Shown: piece after piece, positions 5,721 to 63,498 of the stretch
How the letters are laid out: each line of letters begins with the position of its first letter
How positions within the stretch are numbered: position 1 is the stretch's first letter
Source of the DNA: Dissulfurirhabdus thermomarina
Lineage (GTDB): Bacteria > Desulfobacterota > Dissulfuribacteria > Dissulfuribacterales > Dissulfurirhabdaceae
Direction of reading: 5' to 3'
Length of the DNA stretch: 64,000 nt
NCBI RefSeq assembly: GCF_012979235.1
Contig: NZ_JAATWC010000004.1
Coordinates: 169,243-233,242 of the forward strand
Notes under the pieces: model-generated
Told to the model about the DNA's origin: nothing
What the model saw: the letters and a program-made list of their open reading frames with translations, nothing else
The model's database searches: none
Program-made: the position numbers and the translations under genes

Positions 5721-7444
<1,724 letters not shown>

Positions 7445-46540: not shown

Positions 46541-46575
46541 AGAAACGGCCGGCGACCTTTTGTCGATGCATCTTT

Positions 46576-46749
46576 GATGGCCTCGTAACAAGCCCTCTGA
46601 GTGGATGGCCAAGCGAAAACCGCCAAATGCCGGGCGCGAGGATATCGAGGAATGAAGCGTACCTGGGTACGCCGCAATGACGAGAGCATCCGAAGAGCGC
46701 CGCAGCCCGCGACTCTTGGCGACGCCGTCATCTTTTGGGCGACGCCATC
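46576..46749 (-). repeat. Dispersed repeat, copy 2 (minus orientation)
   Basis: Begins GATGGCCTCG and ends in two close copies of the end motif, CGACGCCGTC (46720-46729) and CGACGCCATC (46740-46749). Read on the minus strand it aligns with the copy at 62335 (AGTCGCGGGCTGC, TCGTCATTGCGGCGTACCCAGGTACGC, CCACTCAGAGGGCTTGTTACGAGGCC). The central stem GCGTACC-TG-GGTACGC (46657-46672) is perfect. It fills nearly the whole space between rpoN and hpf. Confidence 0.85.
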
Positions 46750-56550: not shown

Positions 56551-57747
56551 ATGATCCGCTACATGGACGATATCCAGATGAAGGGACGCCGGGTGTTCAT
56601 CCGGGCCGACTTCAACGTCCCGCTCGACGACTTCGGCAACATCACCGACGACAACCGGATCCGCGCCGTCCTCCCCACCATCAACCACGCCCTGGACGAA
56701 GGGGCGAAGGTGATCCTCTGCTCCCACCTCGGCCGCCCCAAGGGCCAGCGGGTCGAAAAATTCAGCCTGAAACCCGTGGCCCGGCGCCTCTCCCGACTCC
56801 TCCAGAAGGAGGTCGCCCTCGCCCCCGACTGCGTGGGCCCCGAGGTGGAACGGATGGCCGCCGGCCTCGGGGAGGGGGACGTGCTCCTGCTCGAGAACGT
56901 CCGGTTCCACGAGGGCGAGACCCGGAACGACCCGGAATTCGCCGCGCAACTGGCCGCCCTGTGCGAGGTCTTCGTCAACGACGCCTTCGCCGTCTCGCAC
57001 CGGGCCCACGCCTCGGTGGTGGGCATCCCGCCCCTGGTGAAGGACTGCGCGGGCGGCCACCTTCTCCGGGCCGAACTCACCTACTTCCACCGCGCCATGG
57101 AAGACCCGGCCCGGCCGCTGGTCGCCATCGTGGGCGGCGCCAAGGTCTCGAGCAAGCTCGGGGCCCTGGAGAACCTCCTGGCCCGGGTGGACAAGATCGT
57201 CATCGGCGGGGCCATGGCCAACACCTTCCTCATGGCCAGGGGCTACCCCGTGGGACGCTCCCTGGTGGAGCCGGATCTCGTGGAGACCGCCCGGAAGATC
57301 CTCGACCGGGCCCGTTCGAACGGGATCCGGATCTACCTCCCCGTGGACTGCGTGGTGGCCGACCGCATGGAGCCCAACGCCGAGACCAAGATCGTCCCGG
57401 CCAAGGAGGTCCCGGACGGGTGGATGATCCTCGACATCGGCCCCGCCACCGTGGCCCTCTTCCGGGAGGTGCTCCACAACGCCCGAACCATCGTCTGGAA
57501 CGGGCCCATGGGCGCCTTCGAGATGGACGCCTTCAGCCGGGGTACCCTGGCCATGGTCCGGGCGGTGGCCGATTCCTACGCCCTCACCATCATCGGGGGC
57601 GGCGACACCGACGTCGCGGTGCACAAGGCGGGCGAGGTGGACAACATCTCCTACATCTCCACGGGAGGCGGCGCCTTCCTGGCGCTCCTGGAAGGCAAGG
57701 AGCTGCCGGGCATCAAGGCCCTGGAGACCTGCGGGGGAGGAGGCTGA
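56551..57747 (+). CDS. pgk: Phosphoglycerate kinase
   Basis: This 398-residue kinase has [45 protein letters not shown], the GGAKVSSK lysine loop, [11 protein letters not shown] and the nucleotide-binding [12 protein letters not shown] 56551 follows CCGAGGAGACC. It catalyses the reaction after GAPDH and is followed by tpiA two bases downstream. All residues expected for activity are present. Confidence 0.97.
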
Positions 57748-57749
57748 AC

Positions 57750-58514
57750 ATGGCCCGCCGCCCCGTCGTCGCCGCCAACTGGAAGATGCACAAGAGCCTG
57801 GGCGAGACCCGGGATTTCCTCCGGGCCTTCCTGCCCATGGTGGCCGGGGCCCGAGACCGGGAAATCCTGGTGGCGCCCCCCTTCACGGCCCTGGCCCTGG
57901 CCGCCGAGCTGGTCCGCGGGAGCAACGTGGCCATCGCCGCCCAGAACATGCACCCCGAAGAGAAGGGGGCCTTCACCGGCGAGGTCTCGCCGATCATGCT
58001 GTCGGACCTCGGGGTGCGGTGGGTCATCGTCGGTCACTCGGAGCGCCGCCACGTCTTCGGGGAGGGCGACGACTTCGTGGCCGCCAAGGTCCGCTCCGCC
58101 CTCGACCACGGCCTCCGGCCCATCCTCTGCATCGGGGAGACCCTCGAGGAACGGGACGCCGGGGCGACCCTCTCCGTGCTGGAACGCCAGCTCGCCGCGG
58201 CCCTTGCCGGGATCCCCGGGCCGGATCTCGCCGGGCTCGTGGTGGCCTACGAACCGGTCTGGGCCATCGGGACGGGCCGGACCGCCACCACGGCCCAGGT
58301 CCAGGAGGCCCACCGGTCGGTCCGGGAATGGTTCGCGGGGGCCTTCGACTCGAGTATTGCAGGGGAAATCCGGATATTGTATGGTGGCTCCGTCAAACCG
58401 GGGAACGTGGACGCCCTCATGGCCCTCGACGACGTCGACGGGGTCCTGGTGGGCGGGGCGTCCCTCGAGGCGGATTCCTTCAGCCGGATCGTGAACTTCC
58501 GGCCCGCGGGGTGA
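57750..58514 (+). CDS. tpiA: Triosephosphate isomerase
   Basis: This 254-residue TIM barrel contains the catalytic lysine in AANWKMHKS, histidine in IVGHSERRHVFGE and glutamate in VAYEPVWAIGTGRTAT, with the phosphate-binding LYGGSVKPGN. ATG 57750 lies two bases past the pgk stop and follows GGGGGAGGAGG, which overlaps the end of pgk. The operon thus covers three adjacent triose-phosphate steps. Confidence 0.97.
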   Translation: MARRPVVAANWKMHKSLGETRDFLRAFLPMVAGARDREILVAPPFTALALAAELVRGSNVAIAAQNMHPEEKGAFTGEVSPIMLSDLGVRWVIVGHSERRHVFGEGDDFVAAKVRSALDHGLRPILCIGETLEERDAGATLSVLERQLAAALAGIPGPDLAGLVVAYEPVWAIGTGRTATTAQVQEAHRSVREWFAGAFDSSIAGEIRILYGGSVKPGNVDALMALDDVDGVLVGGASLEADSFSRIVNFRPAG

Positions 58515-58518
58515 GCCG

Positions 58519-58833
58519 GTGTACGCCTTCGTCATCACCATCCACGTCGTGACCTGCATCCTCCTGGTCCTCATCGTGCTCCTGCAAAAGGGCAAGGGGG
58601 CCGAGGTGGGGGCGGTCTTCGGCTCCAGCGAGGCCATGTTCGGCAGCGCCGGCCCCGCCTCGTTTCTCCACAAGTTGACTACGGTCCTGGCGGCGGTGTT
58701 CATGGTGACCTCCATCACCCTGACCTATCTCGCGGCCCACAGGGTGGGCGGCTCGGTCATGGAGAAGGTCAAGGCGCCCGCGGCCCCGGCGTCCCCCGTG
58801 GAGCACCCGGCGGCGCCGCCGGCGACCAAGTAG
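58519..58833 (+). CDS. secG: Preprotein translocase subunit SecG
   Basis: The 104-residue SecG has two membrane helices (FVITIHVVTCILLVLIVLLQKGKG and FLHKLTTVLAAVFMVTSITLTYLA) joined by the conserved cytoplasmic loop GAEVGAVFGSSEAMFGSAGPASF. An Ala/Pro-rich tail follows. The GTG start is four bases after tpiA. tpiA-secG-tRNA-Leu is a very common bacterial order. Confidence 0.95.
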   Translation: MYAFVITIHVVTCILLVLIVLLQKGKGAEVGAVFGSSEAMFGSAGPASFLHKLTTVLAAVFMVTSITLTYLAAHRVGGSVMEKVKAPAAPASPVEHPAAPPATK

Positions 58834-58841
58834 CACACACG

Positions 58842-58928
58842 GCCGAAGTGGTGGAATTGGTAGACACGCCATCTTGAGGGGGTGGTGGGCACCCGCCCGT
58901 GGGAGTTCGAATCTCCCCTTCGGCACCA
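58842..58928 (+). tRNA. tRNA-Leu (GAG anticodon)
   Basis: This 87-base class II tRNA has acceptor arms GCCGAAG and CTTCGGC with encoded CCA. The anticodon stem is CCATC/GGTGG with loop TTGAGGG, giving anticodon GAG. The variable arm is long (TGGGCACCCGCCCG region), and the T arm is GGGAG-TTCGAAT-CTCCC. Loop alignment was done by eye. Confidence 0.93.
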
Positions 58929-58937
58929 GATCACGCA

Positions 58938-58969
58938 GGCGGCCTCCCCGGTGGGAGGCCGCCTTTTTT
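58938..58969 (+). terminator. Intrinsic terminator after tRNA-Leu
   Basis: GGCGGCCTCCC and GGGAGGCCGCC form a perfect 11-bp stem with loop CGGT, followed by TTTTTT. The next base begins a dispersed repeat (GATGGCGTCG). It probably ends the gap-to-tRNA transcript. Confidence 0.93.
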
Positions 58970-59170
58970 GATGGCGTCGCGGGAATCGCCAAGCGGAACG
59001 CTTGGCGGCGTTGCTTCCCGCCGCGTCGTCACTGCGGCGGACTTCAAGTATGCCTCGTTCCCCGCGATGGTCGCGCCTTGTCCTTGGCGGTTCCCGCCGA
59101 GCCATCCTCCCGCCTTGCATTTGGCGATCTTTGCCGAGCCTCCGCTCAGAGGACTCTTTACGAGGCCGTC
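58970..59170 (+). repeat. Dispersed ~201 bp repeat, copy 3 (plus orientation)
   Basis: Starts GATGGCGTCG directly after a terminator T-run and ends CTCAGAGGACTCTTTACGAGGCCGTC. It aligns with copy 1 along its whole length and with copies 2 and 4 in the right half. The central hairpin (about 59037-59055) is degenerate here, with one mismatch. Together with 59171-59252 it fills the space before the radical SAM gene; the last 80 bases hold no clear site. Confidence 0.85.
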
Positions 59171-59252
59171 AGCTTCGCGACGCCCCTCATGGTTTCGATC
59201 CTCATTTTTCAGCATTGACTCCCCGCAGGCCTTCTGCCATTGTGCAGTTAGG

Positions 59253-60911
59253 ATGATTCTCGACACCATGCAAGGTTCCGCCCCGGCTGCGCACCCGGCG
59301 GGGGAGTGCGCCTATCCCCTCACGCGCCGGCTCCTGGCCGAGGCCGGAAGAAGCGACATCCCCGCGTCGCCCGAGCTCCCGGAACGCCTCGAGGGCGCCG
59401 CCGTTCCACCCTGGCTGCCGGACCTTGCCCGGGTGGAGCGGGCGGCGGCCGCCGCGGCCCGCGCCCCGCGCCCGGAACGGCCCGGGGCCGGCCCCCCCGT
59501 CGTGAACCCCACCCTGGAGCTGGTGCGGCTGGCCTGGCCCGTCCTCGACGGGCTGGACGGAGAACTCGGCGCCGCTCCCCCGGCCGCCTTCTCCGCGCCG
59601 CCGGCCCCGGCCGACGGTTTCGTCCTCTGCTGGCAGGACACCGCCGGGGTCTCCCACGCGGCCCCCGCCGCTCCCGGTGACCTCCTGGCCCTCAAGGTGG
59701 TGGTGGAGGGGCTGGACCCGGAGGCCGTGGCGTCGGCCCACGGCGTGCCGGTGGGCCGCGTGGACGAGGCCATCCGCGCCGCCGCGGACCGGGAGATCCT
59801 CCTGGCCCCGCCCTCCCGGATCCGGCGCGACCCCGCCGTGTTTCCCATCCCAGAGGGGACCCCGGACCACATGGTGACCGCCGAGACCTTCGCCGTCCAG
59901 TGGCACGTGACCCAGGCCTGCGACCTCCACTGCCGGCACTGCTACGACCGCAGCGACCGGGCCCCCCTCTCCTACGAGCAGGGCGTCCGGGTGCTCGACG
60001 ACCTCCGCCGTTTCTGCCAGGCCAGGAACGTCCGGGGCCACGTGGTCTTCACCGGGGGAAACCCCTTCCTCCACCCGCGTTTCGCCGACCTCTACCGGGC
60101 CGCCGCCGACCGGGGCTTCTCCCTGGCCATCCTCGGGAACCCCGTCCCACGCCGCCGGCTCGAGGAGATCCTGGCGATCCGGGAGCCCACCTTCTACCAG
60201 GTGAGCCTGGAAGGCCTGGAACCCCACAACGACTTCATCCGCGGCCGCGGGCACTTCCGCCGGGCCCTGGCCTTCCTGGACCTCCTCCGGGAACTCGGCG
60301 TGAGCTCCTCGGTGATGCTCACCCTGACGCGGGAAAACCTCCCCCAGGTCCTCCCCCTGGCGGAGATCCTCCGAGGCCGGGCCGACGGCTTCACCTTCAA
60401 CCGCCTCTCCCCCGTGGGCGAGGGGGCCCGTCTCGCCCTCCCCGACCGAGATGCCTTCCTGGCCTTCCTCGAGGCATTCCGGCGTGCCGCCGCCCGGAAC
60501 GAAGTCCTCTACTTCAAGGACAACCTCTTGAACGCCCTGCTCCACCGGGAGGGGCTCCCCCTCTCCGACGGCTGCACCGGCTACGGCTGCGGGGCGGCCT
60601 TCAACTTCATCGCGCTGCTCCCCGACGGCGAGGCCCACGCCTGCCGGAAGTTCCCCTCGCCCATCGGCAACGTCCACGCCGAGGGCCTCGAGGCGGTCTA
60701 CGAATCGGCGGCGGCCCGGCGGTACCGGGCCGGGTGCGAGGGATGCCGCCCCTGCCCCATCCGCCCCTGGTGCGGGGGCTGCCTCGCCGTGGCCCGCGGG
60801 CTCGGCCGCGACATCTTCACCGAACCGGACCCCTTCTGTCCCTTCCTGGGGACGGACGGCATCGACGTATCCTGCACCGCCGGGGTCGTCTCGGCCCCGG
60901 CACAGACCTGA
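59253..60911 (+). CDS. Radical SAM peptide maturase, SbtM-like (thio/selenooxazole type)
   Basis: The 552 residues consist of an N-terminal domain (1-210; PVVNPTLELVRLAWPVLDGLDG) and a radical SAM domain with the 4Fe-4S motif C223-x3-C227-x2-C230 in TQACDLHCRHCYDRSD. A C-terminal SPASM/twitch-like region has many cysteines (DGCTGYGCGAAF, EAHACRKFPSPIGNVH, GCEGCRPCPIRPWCGGC). The layout and the next gene, a Cys-rich SCG-repeat peptide, match the SbtM family described with SbtA precursors in Geobacter-type bacteria. The start at ATG 59253 is uncertain; ATG 59268 is possible and neither has a strong ribosome binding site. Confidence 0.85.
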   Translation: MILDTMQGSAPAAHPAGECAYPLTRRLLAEAGRSDIPASPELPERLEGAAVPPWLPDLARVERAAAAAARAPRPERPGAGPPVVNPTLELVRLAWPVLDGLDGELGAAPPAAFSAPPAPADGFVLCWQDTAGVSHAAPAAPGDLLALKVVVEGLDPEAVASAHGVPVGRVDEAIRAAADREILLAPPSRIRRDPAVFPIPEGTPDHMVTAETFAVQWHVTQACDLHCRHCYDRSDRAPLSYEQGVRVLDDLRRFCQARNVRGHVVFTGGNPFLHPRFADLYRAAADRGFSLAILGNPVPRRRLEEILAIREPTFYQVSLEGLEPHNDFIRGRGHFRRALAFLDLLRELGVSSSVMLTLTRENLPQVLPLAEILRGRADGFTFNRLSPVGEGARLALPDRDAFLAFLEAFRRAAARNEVLYFKDNLLNALLHREGLPLSDGCTGYGCGAAFNFIALLPDGEAHACRKFPSPIGNVHAEGLEAVYESAAARRYRAGCEGCRPCPIRPWCGGCLAVARGLGRDIFTEPDPFCPFLGTDGIDVSCTAGVVSAPAQT

Positions 60912-60947
60912 CCCCCCGGCAAGGGGTGGACAGAGGAGGATGTAGCC

Positions 60948-61265
60948 ATGGACATGGGCACACTCAAGAAGGTCCTCATGGGGATCGGGCTGGCCGGTCT
61001 CTTCGCCTCGGGCGGGGCCGCCCTGGCCAACCCCGGCACCGGGAGCGGCTGCGGCAGCTCCTGCGGCAGCAAGAGCAAGACGGCGAGCCAGCGCACCGGG
61101 TGCGGCGCCTCGTCCTGCGGCGGGGCGAAGGGCGCGACCTCCTGCGGCGGCAACATGACCCACAAGAAGGGCATGACCTCGTGCGGCAACATGACCCACA
61201 AGGGAACGAGCTGCGGCGGCATGAAGAAGCCGGGCACGAGCTGCGGCGGGTCGAGCTGCGGCTAG
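60948..61265 (+). CDS. Cys-rich SCG-repeat secreted precursor peptide (SbtA-like)
   Basis: The 105 residues have a signal peptide (LKKVLMGIGLAGLFASGGAALA) and then a Gly/Ser/Thr-rich chain with nine cysteines. Every cysteine sits in a [GS]CG setting: GCGSSCGS, GCGASSCGG, TSCGG, TSCGN, TSCGG and TSCGGSSCG. The repeats are separated by short Lys/His/Met linkers (NMTHKKGM, NMTHKGT). ATG 60948 follows AGAGGAGGA, 36 bases after the radical SAM gene. I infer it is that enzyme's substrate. No in-frame TGA that would signal selenocysteine is seen. Confidence 0.8.
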   Translation: MDMGTLKKVLMGIGLAGLFASGGAALANPGTGSGCGSSCGSKSKTASQRTGCGASSCGGAKGATSCGGNMTHKKGMTSCGNMTHKGTSCGGMKKPGTSCGGSSCG

Positions 61266-61269
61266 CCCT

Positions 61270-62073
61270 TCAGCGGTGGAGATACCGGGCGAGGTACCGG
61301 CGCTCCTGGGCCGCGCTGATGTAGTCGCGGCGGCGCATGTCCCGGAGGATGCGCCGGTACTTCGCCTGGAACTCGGGCGTCCAGTTCCGGTTCTGCCAGA
61401 GGACGTAGTGGTACTTCCGGGGCGAGGGCAGGAGCAGCGCCAGGAAGGCCCCCTCCGCGGCGTCGATCCGGGAGGGCGGTTTCCCGAAGAGGAGGCGGGC
61501 GGCGGCGTTCACGCCGAAGATGTCCGGCCCGAACTCGGCGATGTTGAGGTAGACCTCGAGGATCTGGTTCTTCGTGAACCGGTCCTCCAGCCGGCGGGCG
61601 AGGACGAACTCTCGGAGCTTCCGGAGCAGCGTCTTGTCCCGGGTGAGGAAGAGGTTCCGGGCCACCTGCTGGGTGATGGTGCTCGCCCCGTAGGCGTAGG
61701 CCCCGGTCTTGAGGTTCCGGGCCAGGGCGTCGATCACGGCGTCGTAGTTGATGCCGTGGTGCTCGAAGAACCGGGCGTCCTCCGCCAGGACCACGGCGTA
61801 GAGGAGGTCCCGGTTGACCCGGCGAAGTGGCACCCATCGGTAGAGGCGCCCCTTGTCCTCGAGCTGCTGGAGGACCCGCTGCCGGCCCAGCCGGCGGATC
61901 TTGCCGAAGTCGCCCGGCACCTCGGGCAGAGTGAGGACGAAGACCGCGGCCGCCAGCGCGAGCAGCAAAAGGCCCGCCCAGAATACGGCCCCCGTCCAGA
62001 GACAGACCCGTTCGAGGGTCCTCCGGGGGTGCAGCAGCAGGTCCAGCAGCGTGGAGCGGCGGTAGGAACGCAT
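61270..62073 (-). CDS. mtgA: Monofunctional biosynthetic peptidoglycan transglycosylase
   Basis: MtgA polymerises lipid II glycan strands. The 267 residues have one membrane helix (LWTGAVFWAGLLLLALAAAVFVLTL) and the GT51 motifs VLAEDARFFEHHGINYDAV (catalytic Glu), GASTITQQVARNLFL, RKLREFVLARRLEDRFTKNQILEVYLN and GPDIFGVNAAARLLFGK. ATG 62073 was chosen; GTG 62097 is an alternative and the long upstream frame runs over a repeat. It ends four bases from the Cys-rich peptide gene on the other strand. The 260 bases upstream (62074-62334) show nothing I can support. Confidence 0.93.
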   Translation of the reverse strand: MRSYRRSTLLDLLLHPRRTLERVCLWTGAVFWAGLLLLALAAAVFVLTLPEVPGDFGKIRRLGRQRVLQQLEDKGRLYRWVPLRRVNRDLLYAVVLAEDARFFEHHGINYDAVIDALARNLKTGAYAYGASTITQQVARNLFLTRDKTLLRKLREFVLARRLEDRFTKNQILEVYLNIAEFGPDIFGVNAAARLLFGKPPSRIDAAEGAFLALLLPSPRKYHYVLWQNRNWTPEFQAKYRRILRDMRRRDYISAAQERRYLARYLHR

Positions 62074-62334
62074 GGCGGTCTCGGAAGCGGACGTCACCTC
62101 CGCCCCCTGGAGGCGTGATCGGCCCGGGAGGCGCCGGGCTTGAAGCCGGCCGCGGGACGCCGCGGCCGGGCCGTGGAACCGGGCCGCGGCGGGCGATGCC
62201 GATCCACCATCGCCGACGGCCGCGGGGTGCTCCGCGCCGGGGCGGCCCGGAGACGCGAGTTGCTCGCTTTTTATGACGGGCGCCCGGCGACCGGCGCTCT
62301 GTGGCATATACCCGGCGTTACGGAGGCCGCAAAT

Positions 62335-62489
62335 GATGGAGTCGCAAAAAGTCGCGGGCTGCTGTGTTGCTTCGGATGTTCTCGTCATTGCGGCGTACCC
62401 AAGTACGCCTCGTTCCTCGACATCCTCGCGCCTTGCATGTGGCGGTTTTTACTTAGCCATCTACTCAGAGGGCTTGTTGGGAGGCCATC
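62335..62489 (+). repeat. Dispersed ~155 bp repeat, copy 4 (plus orientation)
   Basis: Starts GATGGAGTCG and ends CTCAGAGGGCTTGTTGGGAGGCCATC. The central hairpin GGCGTAC-CCAA-GTACGCC (62392-62409) is perfect. It ends four bases before the methyltransferase start, and the GGGAGG in its right end (62479-62484) sits at ribosome-binding distance from that ATG. Confidence 0.85.
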
Positions 62490-62493
62490 ATAA

Positions 62494-63498
62494 ATGACGA
62501 CACCAAAACAGGAACCCACCCCCGGACCCCTCCTGGAACGGTCGGCCGCCTACTGGGAGGCGTGCACCCTGCATGCCGGGGTCCGGCTCGACGTCTTTTC
62601 CGTGATCTCGGGAGGGGCGCTCGCCGCCGACGAGGTGGCCCGCCGCGTGGGCGGCGACGTCCGGGGCGTCACCACCCTGCTCGACGCCCTGGCTGCCATG
62701 GGCCTCCTCGAAAAAGACGGGGACGCCTACCGGAACACCGAGACGGCGGCCCTCTTCCTGGACCGGGCCTCCCCCCGCTACGTCGGCCACATCATCCGCC
62801 ACCACCACTACCTGGTCGAGTCGTGGAGCCGGCTCCCGGAGGCGGTCCTCGGCGGCCGCCCGGTGCGGGACCGCGACCACCGGACCCCGGAGCAGCGGGA
62901 GAGCTTCCTCATGGGGATGTTCAACCTCGCCATGGGCATCGCGCCCCGCCTCTGCCGGGAGATCGACATCGCCGGGCGCCGGAGGCTCCTCGACCTGGGC
63001 GGCGGCCCGGGCACCTATGCCATTCACTTCTGCCTGGCCAACCCGGAGCTGCACGCCGTGGTCTTCGACCTGCCCACCACGGAGCCCTTCGCCCGGCGCA
63101 CCATCGAGCGCTTCGGCGTGGCGGACCGGGTGACCTTCCGGGCCGGCGACTTTCTCCGGGACGACCTCGGCGGCCCCTACGACGTGGCCTGGATCTCGCA
63201 CGTCCTCCACAGCGAGGGCCCCGCCGGCTGCCGCCGCCTCCTCCGGAAGGTGGCCTCGGCCCTGGAGCCGGGGGGCCTCGTCCTGGTGCACGAGTTCATC
63301 CTCGACGACCACCGGGCCGGTCCCCTCTTCCCCGCCCTCTTCTCCTTGAACATGCTGCTCGGGACCCCGGAGGGCCGTTCCTACACCGAGACGGAGTTGG
63401 TGGACATGCTCGCCGAGGCCGGGGCCGCCGACATCCGCCGCCTCCCCTTCGCGGGGCCCAACCAGTCGGGGATCGTGGCCGGGCGGCTGCCGGGCTGA
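62494..63498 (+). CDS. SAM-dependent O-methyltransferase, plant-type/acetylserotonin-like fold
   Basis: The 334 residues have an N-terminal winged-helix dimerisation domain (ADEVARRVGGDVRGVTTLLDALAAMGLLEKDGDAYRNTE). The class I methyltransferase domain has the SAM loop LLDLGGGPGTYAIHF, acidic VVFDLPTTEPFA, GDFLRD and SHVLHSEGPAGCRRLLRKVASALEPGGLVLVHEF. The catalytic-position histidine in SHVLH is present. The substrate is unknown; such enzymes modify small phenolic, polyketide or peptide products. Its start and apparent ribosome binding site abut a dispersed repeat. Confidence 0.88.
   Translation: MTTPKQEPTPGPLLERSAAYWEACTLHAGVRLDVFSVISGGALAADEVARRVGGDVRGVTTLLDALAAMGLLEKDGDAYRNTETAALFLDRASPRYVGHIIRHHHYLVESWSRLPEAVLGGRPVRDRDHRTPEQRESFLMGMFNLAMGIAPRLCREIDIAGRRRLLDLGGGPGTYAIHFCLANPELHAVVFDLPTTEPFARRTIERFGVADRVTFRAGDFLRDDLGGPYDVAWISHVLHSEGPAGCRRLLRKVASALEPGGLVLVHEFILDDHRAGPLFPALFSLNMLLGTPEGRSYTETELVDMLAEAGAADIRRLPFAGPNQSGIVAGRLPG

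Follow-up and report, generated by a model that had tools for sequence, protein, structure and literature searches.

What do a radical SAM enzyme gene and the small cysteine-rich peptide gene behind it make together in Dissulfurirhabdus thermomarina, and what might their product do once it has left the cytoplasm? The two genes lie within a stretch of 64,000 nucleotides (the window; all positions below refer to it), and the original prediction had read them as an SbtM/SbtA system, perhaps a sulfur-only one, with an exported product. We find that they are a genuine all-cysteine SbtM/SbtA pair, of a known family, in which the variant and a link to the PME1 proteins are new.

The sbtM and sbtA genes form a two-gene unit

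The predicted SPASM-type radical SAM gene and the peptide gene 36 bases further on were both confirmed as open reading frames of the same strand:

59253..60911, + strand: sbtM, ATG start; radical SAM/SPASM thio(seleno)oxazole maturase of 552 aa, TIGR04082 match
60948..61265, + strand: sbtA, ATG start, TAG stop; precursor of 105 aa with nine Cys and no Sec
59030-59170, 62386-62490, 7258-7373 and 46575-46643: copies of a dispersed repeat

The sequence GAGGAGG is found upstream of the sbtA ATG. Upstream of the pair lie gapdh, pgk, tpi, secG and tRNA-Leu(GAG), while on its 3' side a monofunctional transglycosylase gene (mtgA) converges with it, 4 bases apart; names of protein-coding neighbours were assigned by reading their translations. 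No metal-resistance gene adjoins sbtMA. The dispersed repeat, of about 60-140 bp and partly tandem, flanks the sbtMA-mtgA block on both sides, and 43 places across the genome match it with E 1e-3 or better; Rfam gave no match within 57500-62700.

Across 100 SbtM loci, no conserved exporter, protease or metal gene is supported as a neighbour, and the biggest neighbour family is found at 14 of them, scattered over both sides and strands. As the leader is a highly conserved signal peptide and no neighbour family is widely kept, the product would be expected to leave the cell by the general Sec route.

The enzyme belongs to the SbtM family

The proposed SbtM identity was borne out by the family model TIGR04082, which matches residues 42-530 at 666.7 bits (cut-off 350) and has no other match above cut-off in a genome-wide search. 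Other radical SAM family models listed align from about residue 210 and fall under their own cut-offs, with the exception of the general SPASM domain model. SbtM is present in 38 genomes of a phylum sample of 395. Relatives were retrieved from genome contigs with an alignment query, a single-sequence query having found nothing, and the named ones include Desulfobulbaceae, Desulfobacterales, Nitrospirota, Acidobacteria, Schekmanbacteria and Omnitrophota MAGs. The window enzyme retains every cysteine that is invariant across 37 homologues, and the same holds for the CxxxCxxC triad and the SPASM cysteines in a set of 49:

59919..59942, + strand: radical SAM CxxxCxxC motif (Cys223, Cys227, Cys230), invariant in 37 and 49 homologues
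60573..60839, + strand: SPASM region with eight invariant cysteines (441, 446, 464, 498, 501, 507, 510, 529)

The genome also encodes a second SPASM-type radical SAM enzyme (L002, G000:C6:26997-28016), which scores 109.6 bits to SbtM, below the cut-off.

The precursor is SbtA-type, with a conserved leader

All nine cysteines of the peptide (residues 35, 39, 52, 57, 66, 79, 89, 99 and 104) stand in [GS]CG settings, as had been noticed before, a placement not reproduced once when the mature region was shuffled 20,000 times. The gene is single copy in the genome. The peptide scores 14.7 bits against TIGR04081, under the cut-off of 30.5, and we thus call it SbtA-type and not a formal TIGR04081 member.

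60948..61028, + strand: SbtA leader, a Sec-type signal peptide, residues 1-27 (MDMGTLKKVLMGIGLAGLFASGGAALA), predicted cleavage before Asn28
61029..61262, + strand: SbtA core, 78 residues, nine [GS]CG sites

We nevertheless regard the peptide as SbtA-type despite its low model score, because its leader is homologous to SbtA leaders and the peptides closest to it are plainly precursors of SbtA type. A leader profile, from which the window sequence and its closest same-order kin were excluded, ranks it first among the 656 ORFs of the window (E 0.0018), and in three same-order genomes the gene order is identical and the precursor collinear with the window peptide. The match to SbtA that had been claimed therefore stands on leader and relatives, though not on the family model.

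Within the family, 108 SbtA-like peptides were gathered from about 120 loci with TGA read as U, and 95 of them carry the leader pattern (L/I)KKxLxGxxxAxL. One Leu is invariant among these 95 aligned leaders, another is present in 93 and the first Lys in 86, numbers to be read with the aligning pattern itself favouring some positions. Leader conservation goes well beyond the needs of an ordinary signal peptide. At the same time, leaders throughout the family appear to be functional Sec signal peptides: 37 of the 108 have a strict lipobox behind the hydrophobic stretch and most others an AxA site, and in the window a KK n-region, a hydrophobic stretch and an ALA/NP site can be read by eye. The export signal claimed earlier can thus be recognised here, but it is common to the whole SbtA family and not special to this locus.

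Unlike the usual arrangement, the window precursor lies downstream of sbtM (99 precursors upstream and 9 downstream in the family count). Two SbtA precursors are present at several SbtM loci (L059, L018, L052, L069, L100 and L153), one of the two at L059 being all-Cys and the other Sec. Second SbtA-like leader peptides (MESKQLKKILAGLC...GCGGAAAC...) are encoded upstream of sbtM at L074 and L075; they have a lipobox and almost no Cys/Sec sites, adjoin a normal Sec precursor and are possibly leader-only decoys or partners.

Cysteine stands where relatives have selenocysteine, in a genome that encodes the Sec machinery

The suggestion of a sulfur-only version holds insofar as sbtA has no in-frame TGA; such a version is, however, not unique, since all-Cys sets account for 11 of the 97 scorable SbtM loci, next to 76 Sec and 10 mixed ones. 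Sec and Cys sites in the family have a common [GS]-[UC]-[GS] setting. In the three same-order genomes the precursors contain 6-9 Cys together with a single C-terminal TGA, in whose place the window has TGC. A search for SECIS hairpins after this TGA shows, by eye, a suggestive stem with a G/U-rich loop about 24-27 nt downstream, but with fold z-scores of -2.6, -1.0 and +1.1 we claim no SECIS element. On the SbtM tree the window and these relatives form one clade (support 98), the all-Cys state takes at least 4 changes, 2 of them forced by well supported branches, and eight all-Cys loci make a clade of their own, with the window elsewhere among its same-order kin.

We considered a genome without Sec machinery and rejected this, as SelA, SelB and tRNA-Sec are all encoded. 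Among the other all-Cys genomes, SelA is present in 2 of 10, compared with 10 of 10 Sec or mixed genomes (Fisher p 0.0007, which overstates the difference because all-Cys genomes are interrelated and several are drafts), and SelB at E 1e-70 in none of the 10. Hence, unlike most all-Cys cases, this one is not to be put down to lost Sec machinery.

The SbtM N-terminus resembles the PME1 partner of MNIO enzymes

Ahead of its radical SAM part, SbtM carries a further module:

59301..59870, + strand: PME1-like module (shortened DUF2063 plus RRE), SbtM residues 17-206, from hhalign, Foldseek and weak Pfam matches

A Pfam scan of 49 SbtM homologues gave weak matches to NGO1945_C in five members and to DUF2063 in three. 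These are the two domains of PME1, partner proteins of MNIO enzymes that are described as dedicated to them (PMC12668002). We thus compared the module with nine DUF2063 proteins, MNIO partners, from plasmids; the query that found them was a DUF2063-like consensus, and the proteins carry the Pfam domain independently of it. In five annotated plasmid records the DUF2063 genes adjoin DUF692 (MNIO) and DUF2282 genes. On an Aminobacter plasmid (L171:3197-3953), a GDCCVxC (seleno)protein and a YHS domain (seleno)protein come after MNIO-PME1-DoxX genes.

Aligned by hhalign, SbtM 17-206 and the nine partner proteins scored 63.8 (probability 96) over 148 columns spanning both domains, compared with a mean of 13.4 and a maximum of 23.0 for 200 column shuffles, 13.7 for the reversed profile and 16.7 for the radical SAM part of SbtM. 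The alignment leaves the first part of DUF2063 unaligned, so that the SbtM N-terminus is a shortened PME1, and in the shortest SbtM proteins the RRE part is kept while the DUF2063-like helices are missing. Foldseek, run with an AlphaFold2 prediction for this module (pLDDT 90), gave a single PDB match under 1e-3. It is the Neisseria PME1 protein NGO1945 as solved by crystallography (3dee), aligned over 193 columns with E 6.9e-4, a probability of 1.00 and a TM of about 0.53; the next match stands at E 0.14. A PDB sequence search with the SbtM N-terminal profile found no match, and PF22106 gave none in the genome and the 395 genomes, but this model was also silent in controls. Profile comparison with its controls, together with the predicted fold, indicates that the N-terminal ~190 residues of SbtM are homologous to PME1. 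In the literature, mostly open papers, we did not find DUF2063, radical SAM and SPASM named together; the original 2021 SbtM paper may already mention a recognition domain.

The sbtMA pair resembles known systems. With SbtM/SbtA (TIGR04082/TIGR04081) it has in common the enzyme family, the leader type, the Cys/Sec-Gly/Ser sites and the two-gene unit; it departs from the usual form in precursor position, in its nine Cys and no Sec despite encoded Sec machinery, and in a precursor under the HMM cut-off. With the MNIO-PME1 captophorins/bufferins (fontiphorin, oxazolin, bufferin 1) it would share a 5-thiooxazole made from Cys beside Gly, and it shares repeated CG sites, a Sec signal peptide on the precursor and the PME1-type recognition module. 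The differences are that the oxidase here is a radical SAM/SPASM enzyme and not an MNIO, that PME1 was not found as a separate protein, a shortened homologue being fused to SbtM, and that the pair has no DoxX or DUF2282 partner. The MNIO family PF05114 is absent from the genome and from five relatives, with a positive Caulobacter control, and signal peptides of MNIO precursors do not have the SbtA leader motif.

An exported thiooxazole metallophore is the best reading

The products of these systems had been called uncharacterised, which is out of date. In vitro assays of an SbtM with Cys and with Sec substrates gave a loss of 4 H and, from the Cys one, a thiooxazole by NMR (PMC11002830, a review). 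The mass change expected per modified cysteine is accordingly -4 H and not a loss of water, which had been proposed earlier alongside loss of hydrogen; for the core, this means 7198.00 Da (monoisotopic) unmodified and 7161.72 Da with nine -4H changes. The SbtM product absorbs at about 305 nm and so matches the captophorins (common band 302-305 nm), and 5-thiooxazole is the ring assigned to the copper-binding MNIO products bufferin 1, fontiphorin, oxazolin and gonophorin (PMC12668002). Most MNIO precursors bear Sec signal peptides (PMC12452194).

We propose that in the cytoplasm SbtM would bind the conserved leader of SbtA, with its signal peptide character, through the PME1-like module, and that the radical SAM/SPASM part would oxidise each [GS]CG cysteine by four electrons, as the thiooxazole reported for another SbtM suggests. 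Ring closure would join the preceding carbonyl oxygen to the beta carbon of the cysteine, forming a 5-thiooxazole, and the modified peptide would exit by the general Sec pathway, with signal peptidase I probably cutting after ALA. In the cell envelope, by analogy with MNIO-made bufferins/captophorins, the thiol-bearing rings could hold a soft metal, of which Cu(I) is the likeliest. Because of the MNIO product parallels and the PME1 module in common, our best reading is that the pair makes an exported thiooxazole metallophore and corresponds to the captophorin system, with a radical SAM enzyme as the oxidase. Against it speak the lack of an adjoining metal-resistance gene, the low TIGR04081 score of the precursor and the shortened form of the PME1-like module. 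For SbtM/SbtA identity, thiooxazole chemistry and export by an all-cysteine pair, with the metal step set aside, we would put the probability at about 0.8. Metal binding by the modified SbtA, with Cu(I) the foremost candidate, is the least certain step and has roughly even odds.

The exported peptide may instead serve as a thiol buffer or in redox, sulfur, selenium or arsenic handling, in place of copper binding, which we hold to be rather unlikely. On one hand, such a role would suit the Sec used by most SbtA relatives, and many named hosts belong to Desulfobulbaceae, Desulfobacterales, Nitrospirota and similar lineages, which are largely anaerobic. On the other hand, Cu(I) is bound by the identical ring in MNIO products. 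The bulbicupramide workers were reluctant to assign a copper-protection role even to an MNIO product (PMC12538549).

It is distinctly improbable that SbtM of the window clade makes another cysteine change, such as the thioether crosslinks of sactipeptides and ranthipeptides, on this Ser/Thr/Gly-rich core with many Cys. A model of the whole enzyme (pLDDT 88) finds its best fold matches in CteB and SuiB, with SkfB also among the nearest solved folds, all peptide-modifying SPASM enzymes; yet such matches are expected of any RRE-SPASM enzyme, and CteB and SuiB, which we take to carry RRE domains, share with the window SbtM the overall RRE, radical SAM and SPASM fold while their precursors differ. 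Their chemistry differs as well, being a thioether in one and a Lys-Trp link in the other. Moreover, the window SbtM is far above the SbtM cut-off whereas thioether-enzyme families are far below theirs, and the same sites are held by Cys and Sec in the SbtA family.

That the precursor is a decaying SbtA, no longer used after losing its functional Sec, is very improbable: the Sec codon is indeed gone although the genome has Sec machinery, but the nine sites, leader and enzyme are all intact, GC3 (0.97 in sbtA, 0.92 in sbtM) is close to that of gapdh, and eight other Cys-only SbtA loci make a separate clade.

Implications for the SbtA family

Returning to the exported thiooxazole metallophore, the PME1 module fused to SbtM ties together two thiooxazole chemistries that, in the literature examined, had been linked by product and spectra alone. 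SbtM and MNIO systems might then share one recognition module and one product type, in a single export-coupled metallophore strategy served by two unrelated oxidases, with SbtA peptides, whether Sec or Cys, as the captophorins of anaerobes; we give this broader idea an evenly balanced chance. An all-Cys, nine-site SbtA needs no Sec insertion and is thus a convenient laboratory model, and the PME1 link both suggests a role for SbtA peptides and makes that role directly testable.
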